36,971 nt of DNA from a virus, in the IMG/VR virus record IMGVR_UViG_3300022562_000917, positions 1-36,971 of that record. One strand, 5' to 3'. Under the pieces are notes generated by a model. That model searched no databases, was not told where the DNA came from, and was given only the letters and a program-made list of their open reading frames with translations. The number at the start of each line of letters is the position of its first letter. The stretch's first letter is position 1. Below are positions 480-33,040 of this stretch, piece by piece. Made by a program: the position numbers and the translations under genes.

Positions 480-1010
480 ATGATAATCACAAATAATGAA
501 GATGCATTGCGAGTCGTATGTGAACCAGTTCTACCAGAAGAAGTGGGATCGCTAGTAGAAACTCTTGAAAAAGAACTAACGTATGCAAATCGTTTGGGAA
601 AGAACGGTATTGGCTTAGCTGCCCCACAAATAGGTATCGCTAAAAACATTGCTATTGTACGATTGCCTAAGATTAGTTTCAATTTAGTTAATGCTAAATT
701 GGAACAAGGTTTTGATCCAGCTACCTTTACTGAAGAAGGTTGTCTGTCTTTCCCTGGACGCCTAGAAAATACTACAAGATTCCAAGAAGTATACATCACT
801 AATAATTTAGTTGAGCCGCATAGTTTTATAGCTAGCGGCTTTCTTGCTGTAGTGTGTCAACATGAGCTAGATCATCTTAACCAAAAGTTGTTTATGGATC
901 GTAGCGTTCCTAAGCCAGTACCTGTTGTTAGAAGTGCCGCCAAAGTTGGACCTAACGCACCTTGCATTTGCGGCTCGGGCAAGAAATATAAGAAGTGTTG
1001 TGGTAGATGA
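480..1010 (+). CDS. def: Peptide deformylase with C-terminal SEC-C zinc motif
   Basis: Removes the N-formyl group from nascent proteins at the ribosome exit. All three deformylase motifs are present: [10 protein letters not shown] (residues 43-52), EEGCLSFPG with metal-ligand Cys88, and QHELDHL with ligands His128 and His132 and catalytic Glu129. After the catalytic domain (about 1-145) and a Pro/Val-rich linker comes a SEC-C-type motif, [17 protein letters not shown] (Cys162, 164, 173, 174), like the zinc tail of SecA. At 176 aa it is catalytic domain plus tail. Phage and organelle-like deformylases are known and may speed maturation of phage proteins; the SEC-C fusion is the unusual part and might direct it to ribosomes or other partners (inference). 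Its stop overlaps the next start (ATGA). Confidence 0.95.
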
Positions 1011-8859: not shown

Positions 8860-9645
8860 ATGACAGAAGATTTGCGACTATCGGTTAGCAAGACCAAAAC
8901 TTTTTTGGATTGCAAAGCTAAATATAAGTTTTGCTATATTGAAAAGCTGCCTCGTAAAGACTGGGACTTCCATATCTTTGGTAAGTTTTGCCATAGTGTT
9001 CTAGAGTATTTTCATAAACAATATATTGAAGGATGTTTATTGCCCTACAATATTACAATGAATGACGCTTTTAAACATGCTTTAACTGAGTTTAAAGATA
9101 AGATGACTCCAGATATGAAGAAGGAGTGTTTTCAAATTGTCGATCAATACTTGCGTATAATTACGAAAGATAAACAGAACGGCATGCCAGCTAACGTAAT
9201 TTCGGTAGAAAAAAGATTTGACTTTGCCATCGCCGAAAATCTTGTTTTAAACGGAGCAATTGACAGGATTCAGTTGGATGACGATAATGTTATCCATGTG
9301 GCCGACTACAAGACCACCAAAAATAAAAAATATCTCAAGAACGATTTCTTTCAACTCTTGACATATGCGTACGTTATAATCTCAGAGGACCCTAGTATTG
9401 AAAAGGTAAGAGCGTCCTATATTCTACTTAGACATAATTTTGAGTATGTTACTACGGAATTTACTAAAGAAGAGATTTTGGCAGTGAAAGATAAGTATCA
9501 GGAGTATGCAAAACAGATGCTTTCTGAGCAGGAATTTCCACCAAACCCCACTAACTTATGTAACTATTGTGATTATCTACAACAATGTCCAGCAGGCAAA
9601 AGCAAGGCTTTTGACCAACAAGTTTATGGTGAAGTCAACTGGTAA
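8860..9645 (+). CDS. PD-(D/E)XK nuclease, RecB/Cas4-like with probable Fe-S cluster
   Basis: RecB-family single-strand exonuclease fold. The N-terminus has the typical LSVSKTKTFLDCKAKYKF entry helix with the first Cys of the cluster, then FGKFCHSVLEYFH. The catalytic core reads NGAIDRIQLDDDN then HVADYKTTK (the D and DxK motif), followed by FFQLLTYAYV with the conserved Gln/Tyr helix. The C-terminus CNYCDYLQQC supplies three more Cys, completing the four ligands seen in Cas4/AddB-type 4Fe-4S nucleases. At 261 aa it is a stand-alone nuclease. No cas1, cas2 or CRISPR array is nearby, so a replication/recombination role is more likely than CRISPR adaptation. Confidence 0.88.
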   Translation: MTEDLRLSVSKTKTFLDCKAKYKFCYIEKLPRKDWDFHIFGKFCHSVLEYFHKQYIEGCLLPYNITMNDAFKHALTEFKDKMTPDMKKECFQIVDQYLRIITKDKQNGMPANVISVEKRFDFAIAENLVLNGAIDRIQLDDDNVIHVADYKTTKNKKYLKNDFFQLLTYAYVIISEDPSIEKVRASYILLRHNFEYVTTEFTKEEILAVKDKYQEYAKQMLSEQEFPPNPTNLCNYCDYLQQCPAGKSKAFDQQVYGEVNW

Positions 9646-9654
9646 GAGGAACCG

Positions 9655-10902
9655 ATGAAAATTGAAGTAAATGAATTAGAACCATGCAGATTGTCCATTC
9701 ATTATGAAGCAAACTTTTTAGAGATTGCGGACAAGCGAGAAGAAATTGAGCGTGCTTTCAAGAAGGCTCCTGTTCCAGGTTTCCGTGAAGGTAAAGCTCA
9801 AATGGAACACATTCGTGTACATTATCGTCAACAGATTGACGACTCATTAAAGCGTGCTCTTGCTGAAGATGCGTTTCACAATACGCTCTTTGAAAAAAAG
9901 CTACGTCCACATGGGCCACCACGTTTCAATAGTTTATTACTAGATGGCGGCAAATTTTCATGTGAATTTGAAATGATGACTAAGCCGGAGTTTGAGCTTC
10001 CAGCATGGAGAGATATGGAAGTTCCAAAACCACATGGACAAGCCAATGCAACCGAGCTTTCCGAAAAGATGATGCAGGAACTGCGTGTACGTCTTGGAGA
10101 TGTACAGCCATATGCCGAAGGTGATTTTGTTCAGAGTGGTGATAACATCATCATCGATTATGAAGGTTTTGTTGATGGTGCTAAAGCAGACGCTTTGTGT
10201 GCCGAAGGTGAAATGATTACCATTGGAAAAAATCAGCTAGATGGTTTTGATACCAATCTATTGGGTATGTCTCTTGATGAGGTAAGAGAGTTTGATTTTA
10301 CTTCACCAGAAAATGGTCTGCCATCTATGGCTGGCAAGCTAATTCATTTCAAGGTTACCTTGAAGATGGGCTCGAAGACTATGCCATGTGCTTTGGATGA
10401 TGAAATGGCGAAAAAGATGGGCAAAGAAACTCTTGCTGAATTGCAAGAAATGGTTGCTCAGGCAGCTTTTGCTCGTGCAGAATCCATGAATAAGATGGCT
10501 GTCCATGAAGCAGTTTCTAGAAAGCTGGTTGATAGCGTACAGATGGACGTTCCACACTGGATGTCTCTTTCTGAAGCTCAATATTTAGCACATCAATCTC
10601 AGCTAGATTGGGCAATCATTCCCGATGAAGACAAAGAAAAAATGATTGAGATGGCTTCTCAAAATGTAAAGCTGGCTTTGACATTAGATAAGATTAGAGA
10701 AACTGAACCAGAGTCTCAACTATCTGATCAAGAAGTATTTGAAATTATCAAGCAGAACTTGGCAAATACTAAAGTTCCTCAAAGTCTTGATGAAGTGATT
10801 CAGCAAATGAACAAAACTGGATATCTCCAAATTCTATTCCAGAGAATTAGAGATGAGAATACTATGGACTTCGTAGTGAAGCACGTTAAATTAGTTGAAT
10901 AA
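9655..10902 (+). CDS. tig: Trigger-factor-like ribosome-associated chaperone
   Basis: Trigger factor binds the ribosome exit tunnel and shields nascent chains. The 415-aa protein (E. coli: 432) matches the three-part plan. The N-terminal ribosome-binding domain (about 1-110) has the signature loop VPGFREGKAQ at about residue 40. An FKBP-type prolyl isomerase domain (about 155-235) includes GDNIIIDYEGFVDG and LDGFDTNLLGM. A long helical C-terminal chaperone domain follows. The signature Pro of GFRxGxxP is replaced. SD AGAGGA precedes ATG 9655. It is a rare phage gene; the product could favour folding of phage proteins or compete with the host factor (inference). Confidence 0.9.
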   Translation: MKIEVNELEPCRLSIHYEANFLEIADKREEIERAFKKAPVPGFREGKAQMEHIRVHYRQQIDDSLKRALAEDAFHNTLFEKKLRPHGPPRFNSLLLDGGKFSCEFEMMTKPEFELPAWRDMEVPKPHGQANATELSEKMMQELRVRLGDVQPYAEGDFVQSGDNIIIDYEGFVDGAKADALCAEGEMITIGKNQLDGFDTNLLGMSLDEVREFDFTSPENGLPSMAGKLIHFKVTLKMGSKTMPCALDDEMAKKMGKETLAELQEMVAQAAFARAESMNKMAVHEAVSRKLVDSVQMDVPHWMSLSEAQYLAHQSQLDWAIIPDEDKEKMIEMASQNVKLALTLDKIRETEPESQLSDQEVFEIIKQNLANTKVPQSLDEVIQQMNKTGYLQILFQRIRDENTMDFVVKHVKLVE

Positions 10903-10916
10903 TAGGAGTAAGTATA

Positions 10917-11240
10917 ATGGGAAAGAAAGATAGTGGTCCCTTAACCTCTTTACCAAAGAAGTGGGATGATCTCATTAAGAAGATGCCTGAGTTCAAAGAC
11001 GAAGCAGATGCTGCTAGTGTCGATGATCTCAAAAAGATTATTGTTGCCTGTGAAGGAAATATCTATACAGTCAGCAAGGAAGAAGAAGCAGATGACAAAC
11101 TAACTGCAGCTAGAGAGATGTCTAAGGAGTTATCTGCACCATATCGTGATGCTAAGAAAGTTCAGCAAGCTAAGATTCAATACGCCTTGCTTTGCTTAGA
11201 AAGCAAGGGTGTAGATTTGGATAATAAGGATGAAGGTTGA
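10917..11240 (+). CDS. Unknown acidic/helical protein (107 aa)
   Basis: Predicted to be mostly helical, with a Lys/Asp/Glu-rich composition (VDDLKKIIVACEGNIY; ELSAPYRDAKKVQQ). The AAREMSKELSAPYRDAKK part resembles helical hairpins in phage proteins of unknown role. A good SD (taggag) precedes ATG 10917. It lies in one operon with the trigger-factor gene, 14 nt downstream. No family recognised. Confidence 0.75.
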   Translation: MGKKDSGPLTSLPKKWDDLIKKMPEFKDEADAASVDDLKKIIVACEGNIYTVSKEEEADDKLTAAREMSKELSAPYRDAKKVQQAKIQYALLCLESKGVDLDNKDEG

Positions 11241-11508
11241 ACGATTCATAATACAAGCTTGCTGTAACAAGAAGCAAATTGTCTTTAAACTAGACAGACC
11301 TCTTGACAGAAGTATACTTGATGTTCTGAAAAGTAATGGGTTCGTAGAAGCGGAACACTTTACTAAAGCAGGAATGCTATATGCCGATAATCTGGACTTA
11401 ATAGTAACGGGTCCATTCGGCAGTGATAGAATAAATGCTAAGTGTAAGAAGCCGGACTGCGACCAAATCCTCAATGATTTTGAGGCATTACTTAGCAGAA
11501 CGGGATGA
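11230..11508 (+). CDS. Unknown small protein (92 aa)
   Basis: It overlaps the previous gene by 11 nt and the next by 4 nt (ATGA), so it is translationally coupled on both sides. It has a short strand-rich N-terminus (ERFIIQACCNKKQIVFKL), a helix (RSILDVLKSNGF), another strand (NLDLIVTGPFG) and a CKKPDC pair near the C-terminus. The layout recalls small alpha/beta regulators, but no family is recognised. Confidence 0.75.
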   Translation: MKVERFIIQACCNKKQIVFKLDRPLDRSILDVLKSNGFVEAEHFTKAGMLYADNLDLIVTGPFGSDRINAKCKKPDCDQILNDFEALLSRTG

Positions 11509-12176
11509 GGATGGCAAAGGGCTCGGGATCTATCGCTGAAATCAGAAAGAAAGTTACCAAAACCCACGAATTTATATCCACTTCATATCATGAGGCTGGA
11601 CACGCCATTTACGCTCTTTTACATTTAATGAAGGTTACTTCGGTATCCGTTTTTGAAAATAAAAAAGTAAAAAGAATTCACGGACTTACATATTATGATT
11701 ATCCTAGTGAATTTGATGAGATTCAAGATCCTGACTTATTAAATACTTTACTTAGAGCCGAAATTGGCATTAGTTACGCCGGTTTGATTGCAGAAAAGAC
11801 TTTGTTTAGAAGCATTTCTGGTTCTCGACAAACTCCAACTTTCATATCATATGGTTCAACTGATGACAATAAATCAGCCCGAGAGGTGATTAAAAAGTAC
11901 AATCTAGCACCTCCTGGGCCCAAAAGAACAGCTTATAAGCAAAAACTAGCGAGAGAAGTTCAACATGAGCTTCATACTCATTGGGATGCGGTAATGGTCG
12001 TTTCACACGCCCTGTTCCGTCATCGACGCTTATCCTTTGTAGACTTACAAGAATTGCTTACCAAAAAGACACATAATAAAAAGTTTTGGAAAGAACAATT
12101 CAAAAAGATTAATTATTATTACGACAATAGCCTAAACCTTGACGAGAAAGATTTAAAAATTATCTTGTCAAGATAA
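11505..12176 (+). CDS. Stand-alone FtsH-type (M41) metalloprotease-like protein
   Basis: The zinc motif HEAGH (residues 29-33, in TSYHEAGHAIYALLH) and the downstream AGLIAEKTLF then YGSTDDNKSAREVI, with an Asp in the position of the third zinc ligand, match the protease domain of FtsH. The AAA+ ATPase and membrane segments of FtsH are absent: the protein is 223 aa and starts directly before the HEAGH helix. It may be an ATP-independent protease or may work with a host unfoldase (inference). The C-terminus is basic and Tyr/Asn-rich. The ATG overlaps the previous stop; ATG 11511 is an equally possible start. Confidence 0.8.
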   Translation: MRMAKGSGSIAEIRKKVTKTHEFISTSYHEAGHAIYALLHLMKVTSVSVFENKKVKRIHGLTYYDYPSEFDEIQDPDLLNTLLRAEIGISYAGLIAEKTLFRSISGSRQTPTFISYGSTDDNKSAREVIKKYNLAPPGPKRTAYKQKLAREVQHELHTHWDAVMVVSHALFRHRRLSFVDLQELLTKKTHNKKFWKEQFKKINYYYDNSLNLDEKDLKIILSR

Positions 12177-12233: not shown

Positions 12234-12296
12234 AACAGCTCCGAGAGATGAGTCGATGTGCATTTGTTACAATACACAACCCAATCAGGAGGTCGT

Positions 12297-15200
12297 ATGA
12301 CCGACTTTGTATCATTGCATAATCAGACTGAGTTTTCTATTCTTGATTCTATTATCAGTCCTAAGGGACTTTTCAAGAAAGCTAAAGAGTTAGGACAGCA
12401 GGCCGTTGCTGTTACAGACCATGGTTCATTGGCTAGCGCTTGGGATGCATGGAAAGCGTCAAAAGATACTGGCGTCAAACTTATCATTGGATGCGAATGC
12501 TATTTCCAAGATGATGCCACCAATGTGAACGAAAAGTTCAGACATATTGTCTTGCTTGCTAAAAATGCAGTGGGATATAGAAATCTGCTAACGCTCAACA
12601 AGAAAGGATTCGACCAAAGTTCCTTTGTTGGTAAGCGCGTGTATTCAGTTTTGGATTGGAAGCTTCTAGAACAATATTCTGAAGGGCTCATCTGTCTTAC
12701 AGCTTGCGGTAATGGTATTGTTAGCCAGCTTCTGATGAAGGGTAAAATGGATGAGGCAGAGCAGACAATTCTGCGCCTCAAGAAATTGTTTGGCGATAAT
12801 TTAGGTTTAGAGATTCAGCCGAACAATATGAAGCGTGGCTCCAACATTTTCAATGATGAAATTGACCAACAGTTTTTAAACAAACAGCTCATCACTTTAG
12901 GCAAGAAACTTGATGTGCGAGTTGTGGCTGCTTGTAATGCCCACTACCTAAACAAAGAGGACTCAGATATTCATGATTCTTTCTTAGCTATTGGCGCACA
13001 TCAGCCAAAGAGTTCAGCATTTCGTTTACGATATCCGCCTGCCGAGTTTTACCTTAAAACGGGCGATGAGGTGAAAGCGTTCTTTACCAGAAATTATGGA
13101 GAGGCATTAGCGCAGGAATTCTGCGATAATAGTGTGTACTTCGCTAACTTGTGCGAAAAGCCAGAATGGATCGATCCAAAATTTTCCAATCCGTCGGGCA
13201 AGGAGCTTCCTGTCTTTCCAGTTAAGGATGAGCCAGATTATGCTGAGTTTCGTCAATGGGCAGACCTTCTAGATGACAATGTTAAGCATCTAGATGAGGA
13301 TAAGCTGTTTTTGCGTTATCGTTGCGAACAGTTTCTTGAGTCCCGCGTTAAGGATCTCAATGATGAGAACATGGGCACATATAAAGCTCGTTTGGTAGAA
13401 GAGATAGATGTTTTGGAGTACCACGGCTTCTCCAGCTACATGCTCATCGTAGCTGATTTTATAGATTGGGCTAGAAAGCATGAAATTGCCGTGGGCGAAG
13501 GCCGAGGGTCTGTCGGCGGCTCTTTGGTAGCTTATTTGTTAGGAATTCACCAAGCCGATCCAATCAAGTATGGTTTGATCTTTGCCCGTTTCCATAATAA
13601 AGAAAAGTCTAGCTTTCCAGATATTGATACGGACTTTGCGCCATCAGGTCGTGTGAAGGTACAAAATTATCTCCGACAGAAATACGGTGAAGACCATGTT
13701 GCTCACGTTAGTAACGTCAATACTATTACGCCCAAAGTGTATGTTAAAGATATTGCGCGTGTGTGCGAAATAGGCGGTAGTAAGGAAGATGCTCTTAGAA
13801 TTGGTAACGAAGTTGCCGATTGTATTCCTGCAGAAATTCATTCTATTGATGATGCTCTTATAAAGGTCCCGCTATTTGCGGAGTACGCCAAGAAATATCC
13901 AGAGTTTGTAAAGTACAAGGATATCTGTGGAAAGTACCGTGCCTGGTCCACTCACGCTGGTGGTATTATCATCTCTGCCCGTCCTCTGACTGGTCTCGTT
14001 CCACTCAGGAAGGATAAGGATGGAGCACTAGCCATTGAGTATGATAAGGACAAGGCTGAGGAAAATGGTCTAGTCAAGATGGATACCTTGGGACTTTCTA
14101 CTCTGGATATTATTGGTCAAACCATGCAGCTCATTAAGTCGTCCGGCAAAGCAGTTCCGGCGGCTATTAATTATGATGATTACGACCAGGAAGCTTACGA
14201 TGTAATTTCTAATGGCGACACTTTCTGTGTGTTCCAGCTTGGAACATCTGGTGGAACTATTGATTTATGTAAACAGATTAAGCCAAAGTCTGTCAATGAC
14301 ATTAGCTACATCAACTCTCTGGCTCGCCCCTCTGCTCGTGACATGCGCAAGGACTTCATTCTTACTAAGAATGGCGAGAAGCCGTTCTCTTTACTACACC
14401 CAAAACTAGGAAGAGCGTTCAACAATACGTTCGGATTCGGTCTATATGAAGAGTCTCTTATGTATCTAGCTCAAGACGTGGCTGGATGGAGTTTACATTC
14501 TGCTGACCGTTTACGTAAGCTCACGAAGGAAAAGGGCAAGAATCCCAAGAAAGCTCAAGAGTGGCGCGCAGAATTCATTAAGGATGCTGTTGGGAATAGT
14601 GTCAATGAAGCAATTGCCAAACGTATTTGGGATGAAGTCGTAGATAAATTCCAAGGTTACGGTTTCAATATGTCTCACTCAATCTTGTACTCTATGACAA
14701 GTTATAAGACTGCATGGTTGAAGGCTCATTATCCGATTGAGTTCCTTATGGCCAATTTGATGGCTGAAGTAAAATCCAACGCGCCCGATGCGAAGACTAA
14801 TATTGAAAAGATCAAGAAAGAGATCCGTAAGCGTCGAGTCAAAATTGTTCCTCCTGATATCAACAAGTCACAGTTGGTTTATACTTTGGAAGAAGGTAAT
14901 AAGCTAGTTACCGGACTAGATGCCATTAAATTTGTGGGCGTAGATGCTATCAAAGATATTATTGATAAGCGACCATTCAATAGCTTTTTCGATTTTATGG
15001 TAAGAGTAAGTTCTAAGGCAGTTAGAGCAAATAGCATTCAAGCCTTAGCGGCTTGTGGGGCTTTGGATTCTTTTGGAATTCCGCGCAAGCTCATGTTCTT
15101 GTATTGTTCAGACTATCGCAAAAAATTGCAAGTTTGGCTCAAGAAGCATGATCCGACCAAAGAGCAGTTCCTTTATCCTTGGCCTGCCGAGCCCGAATGG

Positions 15201-15812
15201 ACTAAGCCTGAAGTGTATGCTCTAGAACATTATTACATTGGAGAGTCGTTTACATGTAAGCCGGTAGAAGCTTATGGTACGTTTTTTGGTGGCGAGCATA
15301 CTACTGTGCATGATATCAAGCGCTCCAAAGATAAAACCAGCGTAGCGGCCGTCAAAGGTATCATACGAGACTTCTTCGAATTTAGAGTAAAGAAAGAGGG
15401 CAAGTATTATGGTCAGTCGATGGTCAAGGCCGTTCTAGAAGATAAAAATGGCGACCAGTGTACTTTGACAATTTTCCCGGATCGCTGGAAAACCGTCAAA
15501 GAAAGAATTCAAGAAATTAACAAGAAGGCGGAATTCGATATAGGAATAGCATTGTTCTTCTCAGGAAATACAAATTCTTATGAAGATGACATGGGTGTCA
15601 TATTAGATCAATTATACCACATTGCACTTCCACCGGCTCTTCCTGCCGATTTAAAGGCCAAAAAAATCAACCTTAAAGAGGCAAAAGCAAAACTTCTCAT
15701 TAAGGAAGAAGACGAAAAACCTAAGAGTCCTCAGGAGATACTCGATCAAATCGAGGACGTTCTATACGATGAAGGTCTCATCGATTTGGACGCGGAACCG
15801 GATGATGACTGA
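12297..15812 (+). CDS. dnaE: DNA polymerase III alpha subunit (DnaE-type replicase)
   Basis: C-family replicative polymerase of 1171 aa. The start is set by AGGAGG 5 nt before ATG 12297; an in-frame GTG at 12258 lacks an SD. Domains in order: PHP (about 1-270, AVAVTDHGSLASAW), palm with GEGRGSVGGSLVAYLLG and the catalytic PDIDTDF (about residue 440), the third catalytic Asp in KMDTLGLSTLD (about 594), fingers with MSHSILYSMTSYKTAWLKAHYP, then HhH and OB-like parts. In the first PHP motif the usual HxH is LHNQ, so the second His is lost and PHP proofreading is probably inactive. No epsilon-type exonuclease is seen in the window. A bacterial-type replicase in a phage with T4-like recombination genes is notable. 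Confidence 0.97.
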   Translation: MTDFVSLHNQTEFSILDSIISPKGLFKKAKELGQQAVAVTDHGSLASAWDAWKASKDTGVKLIIGCECYFQDDATNVNEKFRHIVLLAKNAVGYRNLLTLNKKGFDQSSFVGKRVYSVLDWKLLEQYSEGLICLTACGNGIVSQLLMKGKMDEAEQTILRLKKLFGDNLGLEIQPNNMKRGSNIFNDEIDQQFLNKQLITLGKKLDVRVVAACNAHYLNKEDSDIHDSFLAIGAHQPKSSAFRLRYPPAEFYLKTGDEVKAFFTRNYGEALAQEFCDNSVYFANLCEKPEWIDPKFSNPSGKELPVFPVKDEPDYAEFRQWADLLDDNVKHLDEDKLFLRYRCEQFLESRVKDLNDENMGTYKARLVEEIDVLEYHGFSSYMLIVADFIDWARKHEIAVGEGRGSVGGSLVAYLLGIHQADPIKYGLIFARFHNKEKSSFPDIDTDFAPSGRVKVQNYLRQKYGEDHVAHVSNVNTITPKVYVKDIARVCEIGGSKEDALRIGNEVADCIPAEIHSIDDALIKVPLFAEYAKKYPEFVKYKDICGKYRAWSTHAGGIIISARPLTGLVPLRKDKDGALAIEYDKDKAEENGLVKMDTLGLSTLDIIGQTMQLIKSSGKAVPAAINYDDYDQEAYDVISNGDTFCVFQLGTSGGTIDLCKQIKPKSVNDISYINSLARPSARDMRKDFILTKNGEKPFSLLHPKLGRAFNNTFGFGLYEESLMYLAQDVAGWSLHSADRLRKLTKEKGKNPKKAQEWRAEFIKDAVGNSVNEAIAKRIWDEVVDKFQGYGFNMSHSILYSMTSYKTAWLKAHYPIEFLMANLMAEVKSNAPDAKTNIEKIKKEIRKRRVKIVPPDINKSQLVYTLEEGNKLVTGLDAIKFVGVDAIKDIIDKRPFNSFFDFMVRVSSKAVRANSIQALAACGALDSFGIPRKLMFLYCSDYRKKLQVWLKKHDPTKEQFLYPWPAEPEWTKPEVYALEHYYIGESFTCKPVEAYGTFFGGEHTTVHDIKRSKDKTSVAAVKGIIRDFFEFRVKKEGKYYGQSMVKAVLEDKNGDQCTLTIFPDRWKTVKERIQEINKKAEFDIGIALFFSGNTNSYEDDMGVILDQLYHIALPPALPADLKAKKINLKEAKAKLLIKEEDEKPKSPQEILDQIEDVLYDEGLIDLDAEPDDD

Positions 15813-25312: not shown

Positions 25313-25753
25313 ATGGAACGTAGAAAAAATCGTAGCGACAAATATCAATGGGTGTTACTCGAAACAGTTTGTTCAAATGACATGATGGAAGCGTTTTGCA
25401 ATGAAGATAGTATCTCAGCAAGACTTAATCCATTTGAGTACAATGAAGATTTAATTGAGCTGGAAGAGCAACTCAAGAAAGAGTTTTGGAGAGTCGTAGA
25501 TACTTTACTGACACCAAGACAAAGAGAAGTGATTCGACTTTACGCTGATGGCTACACTCAGATGGAGATAGCTAAAATGCTAAATGTCAATCAAAGCTCT
25601 ATTACCAAGTCTCTTAATGGAAATGTAGATTATAAGAATGGTAAGAAGATTTATGGTGGAGCTAGAAAGAAAATTCGTAAGATTATCGAAAATGATGAGA
25701 AAATCAAAGATATCTTGAACAAAATGCGCGATGCAAGAGACGAGAGATGGTAA
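25313..25753 (+). CDS. Sigma region-4-like HTH protein
   Basis: A 146-aa protein whose residues about 62-100 read LLTPRQREVIRLYADGYTQ and then MEIAKMLNVNQSSITKSLNG, the classic sigma-70 region 4 / LuxR-type HTH pattern. Only a short acidic helix precedes it, with no recognisable region 2, so it is smaller than T4 gp55. A basic C-terminal part (KKIYGGARKKIRKI) follows. It may be a phage sigma-like factor or anti-host regulator that recognises the -35 side, or a terminase-small-subunit-like HTH protein. It sits between the replication genes and the presumed late genes, flanked by a motif and a terminator. Confidence 0.75.
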   Translation: MERRKNRSDKYQWVLLETVCSNDMMEAFCNEDSISARLNPFEYNEDLIELEEQLKKEFWRVVDTLLTPRQREVIRLYADGYTQMEIAKMLNVNQSSITKSLNGNVDYKNGKKIYGGARKKIRKIIENDEKIKDILNKMRDARDERW

Positions 25754-32269: not shown

Positions 32270-33040
32270 ATGAAACTCCGTGAATTGCTGCAAGACATGA
32301 AGAGAGTACAAGAAGAAATAGGGTCCTCGGTTCCCTATATTTGCGGAGGTACGCCTAGAGATAAGTATATGGGCAAATTGGAAAACGTTGCCGACATAGA
32401 TATTACTACTGGCGATAAAACGGTTGACTATCTTTCTCAAGAATTTTATTTGGATCTTCGTAAGAAGTATAATGTTACTAGAAAAACAATGGATGATGGA
32501 CACAGTTCTATTTTCATTGGTAAATTGAAAATAGATTTTTCATCGAACTTTATTGTGCCCGGTGTTGATAACGCGCTTAAAAAGAAGGGTATTACCCCTA
32601 CTAACATGCATCGAGAGATGTTTAGTAGAGACTTTACTTGCAATTCTTTATTACTTACAACAGACTTACGCAAAATTTTAGATCCAACTGGACAAGGATT
32701 CAGCGATATTAAGAGTAAAGTAATTAGAACATGTTTAGCCCCGGAAATTACTTTAACTTCTAATAGAAATAGGGTTGTTAGGGCTATCTATTTGGCTAGC
32801 AAATTAGATTTTGATCTAGATCCAAAGATTATTGAGTTTGTTGGTAAAAATCCACAGACCGTCAAGATTTCTACTGAGAAATCGATGACAGAAAAATTAG
32901 ATGAGGCTTTTACCAGAGATGCTGATAAAGCGTCTCACCTTATTACTAAAATGCATTTGTGGAACTATATTCCAATTACTGAAAAGGTATATCCATATTA
33001 TATGAAACAGAATAAAGGAAAACCCAATGTCAGTAAATAA
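32270..33040 (+). CDS. CCA-adding enzyme/poly(A) polymerase-like nucleotidyltransferase
   Basis: Class II nucleotidyltransferase head and neck. Residues 23-45 read YICGGTPRDKYMG then NVADIDITTGD, the GG...RD...DxD motif with the catalytic Asp pair at 42 and 44. Further on, MFSRDFTCNSLLL and LDPTGQGFSDIKSKVIRTC match the RRDFTxNAL and DxxGGxxDLxxxxIR motifs, and RNRVVRAIYLASKLDFDL matches the LRxxRAIRFA motif. It is 256 aa, without the usual body and tail. It may repair phage or host tRNA 3' ends or polyadenylate RNA. It has a full SD (AAGGAGG) and sits unexpectedly in the late-type block. Confidence 0.85.
   Translation: MKLRELLQDMKRVQEEIGSSVPYICGGTPRDKYMGKLENVADIDITTGDKTVDYLSQEFYLDLRKKYNVTRKTMDDGHSSIFIGKLKIDFSSNFIVPGVDNALKKKGITPTNMHREMFSRDFTCNSLLLTTDLRKILDPTGQGFSDIKSKVIRTCLAPEITLTSNRNRVVRAIYLASKLDFDLDPKIIEFVGKNPQTVKISTEKSMTEKLDEAFTRDADKASHLITKMHLWNYIPITEKVYPYYMKQNKGKPNVSK

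Follow-up and report, generated by a model that had tools for sequence, protein, structure and literature searches.

A huge-phage trigger factor with a retained ribosome-docking loop and a degraded isomerase pocket

We describe a trigger factor (TF) gene in a 36,971-nucleotide stretch of DNA (IMG/VR record IMGVR_UViG_3300022562_000917; hereafter the window), which belongs to a virus of bacteria. The gene (9655..10902, plus strand (+); 415 amino acids (aa), ATG start) encodes a new viral variant within the trigger factor family, carried by a clade of huge uncultivated phages, in which the ribosome-docking loop is the best-conserved segment of the protein and the prolyl-isomerase pocket is degraded. 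It probably functions as a ribosome-docking, isomerase-degenerate holdase, acting on nascent proteins alongside the peptide deformylase (PDF) and methionine aminopeptidase (MAP) of the same phages.

Domains, docking loop and isomerase pocket

By both domain and fold tests, the product of this open reading frame (ORF) is a genuine full-length member of the trigger factor family. Trigger_N (2.6e-18), FKBP_C (5.2e-5) and Trigger_C (4.2e-8) are found in this order, each over its curated Pfam cut-off, and the huge-phage relatives are 413-416 aa long, thus bearing out the initial annotation of the gene as a phage trigger factor with all three domains at near-cellular length. Trigger factors are the nearest solved relatives, among them E. 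coli TF (PDB 1w26; phmmer E = 6.6e-17, residues 11-383 aligned), to which the phage protein is 24% identical. An AlphaFold model (mean pLDDT 85, pTM 0.66), for which the input alignment comprised phage sequences only, has full-length trigger factor structures as its best Foldseek matches (1w26 at E = 2.6e-21, along its entire length), with the modest TM-scores of 0.5-0.6 expected of a multi-domain protein with mobile domains. The N-terminal ribosome-binding domain (9655..9993, +; residues ~1-113; Pfam Trigger_N 1-138) adopts a strand-strand-helix-loop-helix arrangement in the model. It is followed by the FKBP-like domain with the degraded isomerase pocket (10108..10383, +; residues ~152-243 by residue mapping) and by the C-terminal chaperone or "arms" domain (10384..10899, +; Pfam Trigger_C), which is almost entirely helical in the model.

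The relatives fall into two subfamilies. Subfamily 1, to which the window protein belongs, comprises TFs with 48-78% identity from 35 viral contigs of up to 481 kb, and at least 42 contigs in total when seven added via a search with the neighbouring exonuclease are included. Subfamily 2, which is ~32% identical, is known from 7 contigs and has the same neighbours at the locus that was examined (L142).

The ribosome-docking loop, FKKAPVPGFREGKAQ (9757..9801, +; residues 35-49), was delineated by entropy ranking and by mapping of residues to G43 F44 R45 x G47 K48 of E. coli TF. When the 408 8-residue windows of the protein were ranked by entropy across 36 distinct sequences, FKKAPVPG was the most conserved and KAPVPGFR the second. 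G42 and R44 are present in 36/36 distinct relatives and F43 in 32/36; likewise, in the residue mapping the equivalents of E. coli Gly43 and Arg45 are found in 33/33 members of subfamily 1 each and that of Phe44 in 30/33, with all three in 7/7 members of subfamily 2. The initial annotation had read GFREGKAQ (residues 42-49) as an altered ribosome-binding signature. This stands for Glu45 and the final two residues, the only departures from the usual signature, but is overstated otherwise: the GFR-x-GK core is intact and the L23 contact loop, holding the most conserved window of the family, is not substantially altered.

To gauge these departures, motif frequencies were taken from 37 bacterial TFs that were not motif-selected (30 of them from one phylum), with those retrieved by the pattern GFR[KP]GKVP excluded. 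The position of E. coli Lys46 is variable: 35/37 of these bacteria have P or K there, while phages have P, K, E or Q; Glu occurs there in 6/33 phages in the residue mapping and 5/36 distinct relatives, and in 0/37 bacteria. The final Pro is present in 36/37 bacteria, 7/7 members of subfamily 2 and 6/36 of subfamily 1, where Ser or Thr usually takes its place (Gln49 in the window TF) and where the V to A change is also general. One sampled bacterial TF (L042) is also without this Pro, which is a consensus position and not a strict requirement.

A larger alteration than that of the signature, absent from the initial annotation, is the degradation of the isomerase pocket. The FKBP active-site pocket, represented by F168, F177, I195, F198, Y221 and F233 of E. 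coli TF, is not preserved as a set: the equivalents of both F177 and Y221 are found in 0/33 members of subfamily 1. In the window TF these two are replaced by Ala and Gly, respectively, next to the conservative changes F168Y and I195L, while F198 and F233 are kept. Throughout subfamily 1, F217 is replaced, loop residue 194 is deleted and F168 is Tyr, with F198 and F233 mostly kept. From these residues, isomerase activity is expected to be weakened or lacking. Constraint is strongest on the docking loop, which argues for retained ribosome docking, and the persistence of this loop as the most conserved segment, although the F177 and Y221 equivalents are gone, points to selection having kept docking rather than catalysis. 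The TF gene is under purifying selection (dN/dS ~0.05, i.e. 0.053/1.04, in the least saturated pair).

Co-occurring maturation factors and the proposed role

The phages that carry this TF also encode a conserved set of translation-maturation factors that the initial annotation did not mention, namely ribosomal protein S21, a PDF with a SEC-C motif, and MAP. Among 14 long phage records, PDF is present in all 14, several kb to ~12 kb upstream of TF; S21 is likewise present in 14/14, mostly a few kb further upstream than PDF; and MAP is found in 11/14, elsewhere from the TF locus. The PDF of the window (480..1010, +; PF01327, 2.3e-25) has intact catalytic motifs, including QHELDH, and a C-terminal SEC-C motif (PF02810, 6.9e-9, residues 159-176). 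All 13 aligned huge-phage relatives of this PDF share a SEC-C-like cysteine tail, while the motif was not seen on the four subfamily-2 deformylases examined, nor on the phage MAP. As the small metal-binding (SEC-C type) domain of SecA binds ribosomes near uL23 (PMC6620043), the PDF tail may dock at the exit site, and is thus possibly a ribosome-docking tag. Nascent chains are handled successively by PDF, MAP and TF (PMC8185961). A phage GroEL, sought as a partner chaperone, was found in 0/14 contigs, and a search for L7/L12 recovered weak partial matches only.

The holdase role proposed above would have its origin in one old acquisition of the gene from bacteria, after which it would have been fixed in the huge-phage clade. 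The N-domain loop would still fit uL23, the docking protein at the exit of the host ribosome, and the docked phage TF would either take the place of host trigger factor or add to it, making competition between the two plausible. The C-terminal arms would then hold nascent chains of the phage, with a presumable preference for, or benefit to, phage proteins; because the prolyl-isomerase pocket is degraded, the protein would work mainly as a holdase. Together with PDF, whose SEC-C tag may dock at the exit, MAP and S21, it would form a nascent-chain maturation set on host ribosomes, which suggests that these phages bring their own kit for nascent-chain handling. A more far-reaching version, which we offer as tentative, is that the clade installs S21, the SEC-C-tagged PDF, MAP and the isomerase-degenerate TF on host ribosomes such that phage factors initiate, process and chaperone the proteins made during infection in preference to those of the host.

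Several points weigh against the holdase proposal. Glu45 is negatively charged, its E. coli counterpart being Lys46, and could weaken the contact with the ribosome, the terminal Pro of the signature is usually missing in subfamily 1, and the docking Phe is replaced in four relatives (by Y, S, C or N). MAP was not found in 3/14 contigs, which are possibly incomplete. TF lies among replication genes, and hence its timing may be early, as against the late expression of S21 reported in other phages.

Two rival readings stand out, in which the phage TF is either an assembly chaperone away from the ribosome or a dominant blocker of the exit site. In the former, which we regard as unlikely, the phage TF would be mainly cytosolic, shielding particular phage proteins (e.g. 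large replication or capsid proteins) and assembling them, with docking being secondary. The position of the gene in a replication cluster and the loss of the docking Phe in some family members would fit such a role, and bacterial TF is also active off the ribosome (title of PDB 3gty); however, the docking loop is the best-conserved segment of the protein, and the ribosome-linked PDF, MAP and S21 co-occur with it. In the latter, a phage TF seated on uL23 would keep host TF, SRP or SecA from acting there and so shut down host protein biogenesis, instead of aiding phage proteins. While the retained docking residues are compatible with this, a blocker would need the N-domain only, yet the C-terminal chaperone domain is complete and purifying selection acts on the gene as a whole, which makes such interference quite improbable. 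That the protein is chiefly a phage-supplied peptidyl-prolyl isomerase, as the retained FKBP domain and the F198 and F233 equivalents might suggest, is more doubtful still given the loss in subfamily 1 of the F177 and Y221 equivalents, loop residue 194 and F217.

Phage origin and genomic neighbourhood

The gene content of the window is that of a phage-genome fragment, with SbcC/SbcD-like proteins, a dNMP kinase, an exonuclease, a DnaE-type polymerase, a UvsX-like recombinase, a primase, a RuvC-like resolvase and a terminase. The PD-(D/E)XK exonuclease (8860..9645, +) lies immediately 5' of TF at every close orthologous locus: 24/24 of its close orthologues (at least 53% identity), found independently of TF, have TF directly downstream, whereas five distant matches (below 30% identity) do not. 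A ribosome-binding site, AAGAGGA (9644..9650, +), at the 9-bp gap between the two genes suggests their co-expression. Across 13 syntenic loci, compared over 20-kb stretches, the order SbcD, SbcC, exonuclease, TF, two small ORFs and an M41-like protein is kept. The small ORFs (107 and 92 aa; 10917..11508, +) are directly 3' of TF in 13/13 loci. The M41-like protein (223 aa; 11505..12176, +), encoded between TF and DnaE, has a weak, below cut-off match to PF01434 (3.7e-4) and an FtsH-like HEAGH motif that is invariant in 14 sequences. The dNMP kinase is missing in 2/13 loci, and DnaE (12258..15812, +; phrog_405, 1.3e-249) is unseen in 2/13, where the 20-kb stretch ends. With this conserved polymerase as an evolutionary yardstick, among seven neighbouring genes (replication genes and PDF), identity-based distances of TF track those of its neighbours (r = 0.81-0.94).

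In trees of 33 sequences, and of 30 sequences spanning both subfamilies, all sampled phage TFs form one clade apart from bacterial TFs (tig) with 100/100 support, which sits on a long stem. The simplest reading of these trees, whose bacterial sampling leaves out Bacteroidota and other phyla, is a single bacterial origin of the phage TF. A mixed alignment of phage and bacterial TFs was too divergent for scanning. No relative with the family-specific TF pattern was found in GTDB genomes, no close TF relatives were found in cultivated phages (matches in the phage collection being below 32% identity), and Foldseek recovered no viral protein similar to the TF model in BFVD at E <= 0.001. Bacterial DNA mis-binned as phage, which the initial annotation had named among what would overturn it, or a recent capture of a host gene might be suspected from the checkable TF matches in the GenBank phage collection, which are bacterial or look so (Acinetobacter tig-clpP-clpX), and from PHROG 26774, a bacterial TF family, but is ruled out at this locus for all practical purposes: the gene is conserved within a shared phage neighbourhood in dozens of independent huge-phage contigs, which excludes chance and contamination, its GC content is the same as the window's (0.400 vs 0.401), terminase, DnaE and SbcCD share its contig, and the phage TFs form a single long-stemmed clade.

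As a separate matter, a database entry labelled 'phage' in GenBank (L038; CAKLQH020000005.1) is a contig of a bacterial chromosome (tig-clpP-clpX); the other TF matches examined in the phage collection resemble it and could mislead searches for phage TFs. Further genes of the window include a thioredoxin-like protein (1465-1773; PF00085, 1.2e-10), which lies between PDF and TF and is kept in 13/13 syntenic loci, a homologue of the CCA-adding tRNA nucleotidyltransferase (32270-33040), a further translation-linked gene, and a sigma-70 region 4-like helix-turn-helix protein (25313-25753), a possible phage transcription regulator. Scanning the window for Rfam families and tRNAs gave no match. At the subfamily-2 locus, the end of the DnaE ORF (L142:6217-8973) resembles the start of an intein (CLYFLEPIDIYTPEGSYLT...).

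Comparison with known systems

The only PHROG convincingly matched by the phage TF is phrog_26774 (1.9e-30); this profile is, however, that of bacterial TF (E. coli TF, 2e-121), and possibly stems from host genes flanking prophages. A TF adjoining a prophage has been described (PMC6811365), and a virome study of the Southern Ocean detected no trigger factor analogue among its viral proteins (PMC8407431). The main text of the huge-phage survey lists PDF, S21, L7/L12 and translation factors, with no TF (PMC7162821), and that of a later study mentions protein folding chaperones with TF unnamed (PMC9723584). No phage-clade trigger factor was encountered in PHROGs or in the literature searched, which did not extend to the supplementary tables of the surveys, where an unremarked TF annotation may exist. 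Thus, while ribosomal proteins, translation factors and deformylase are known in phages, a clade-fixed co-translational chaperone does not feature in that literature.

The PDF of the window shares its catalytic core with those of cyanophages, Vibrio phages and huge phages, but differs in its C-terminal SEC-C motif, none of the GenBank phage matches listed extending past residue 140. The phage TF resembles bacterial trigger factor (tig; E. coli 1w26, 2vrh) in domain order, fold, near-cellular length and the GFR-x-GK motif, and is set apart from it by its separate clade, the degraded isomerase pocket, the terminal Pro that is mostly lost and, in the window phage, Glu45. Its docking loop and arms are kept while the isomerase pocket is lost, a natural experiment in what TF needs of its parts, and phage takeover of the exit site becomes open to direct test. 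The translation genes described from huge phages (PMC7162821; Chen 2022, PMC9723584) plug into host ribosomes, and the present phages also carry S21 and PDF; whereas those known ribosome-plugging genes concern initiation, the phage TF would act on nascent chains at the exit.
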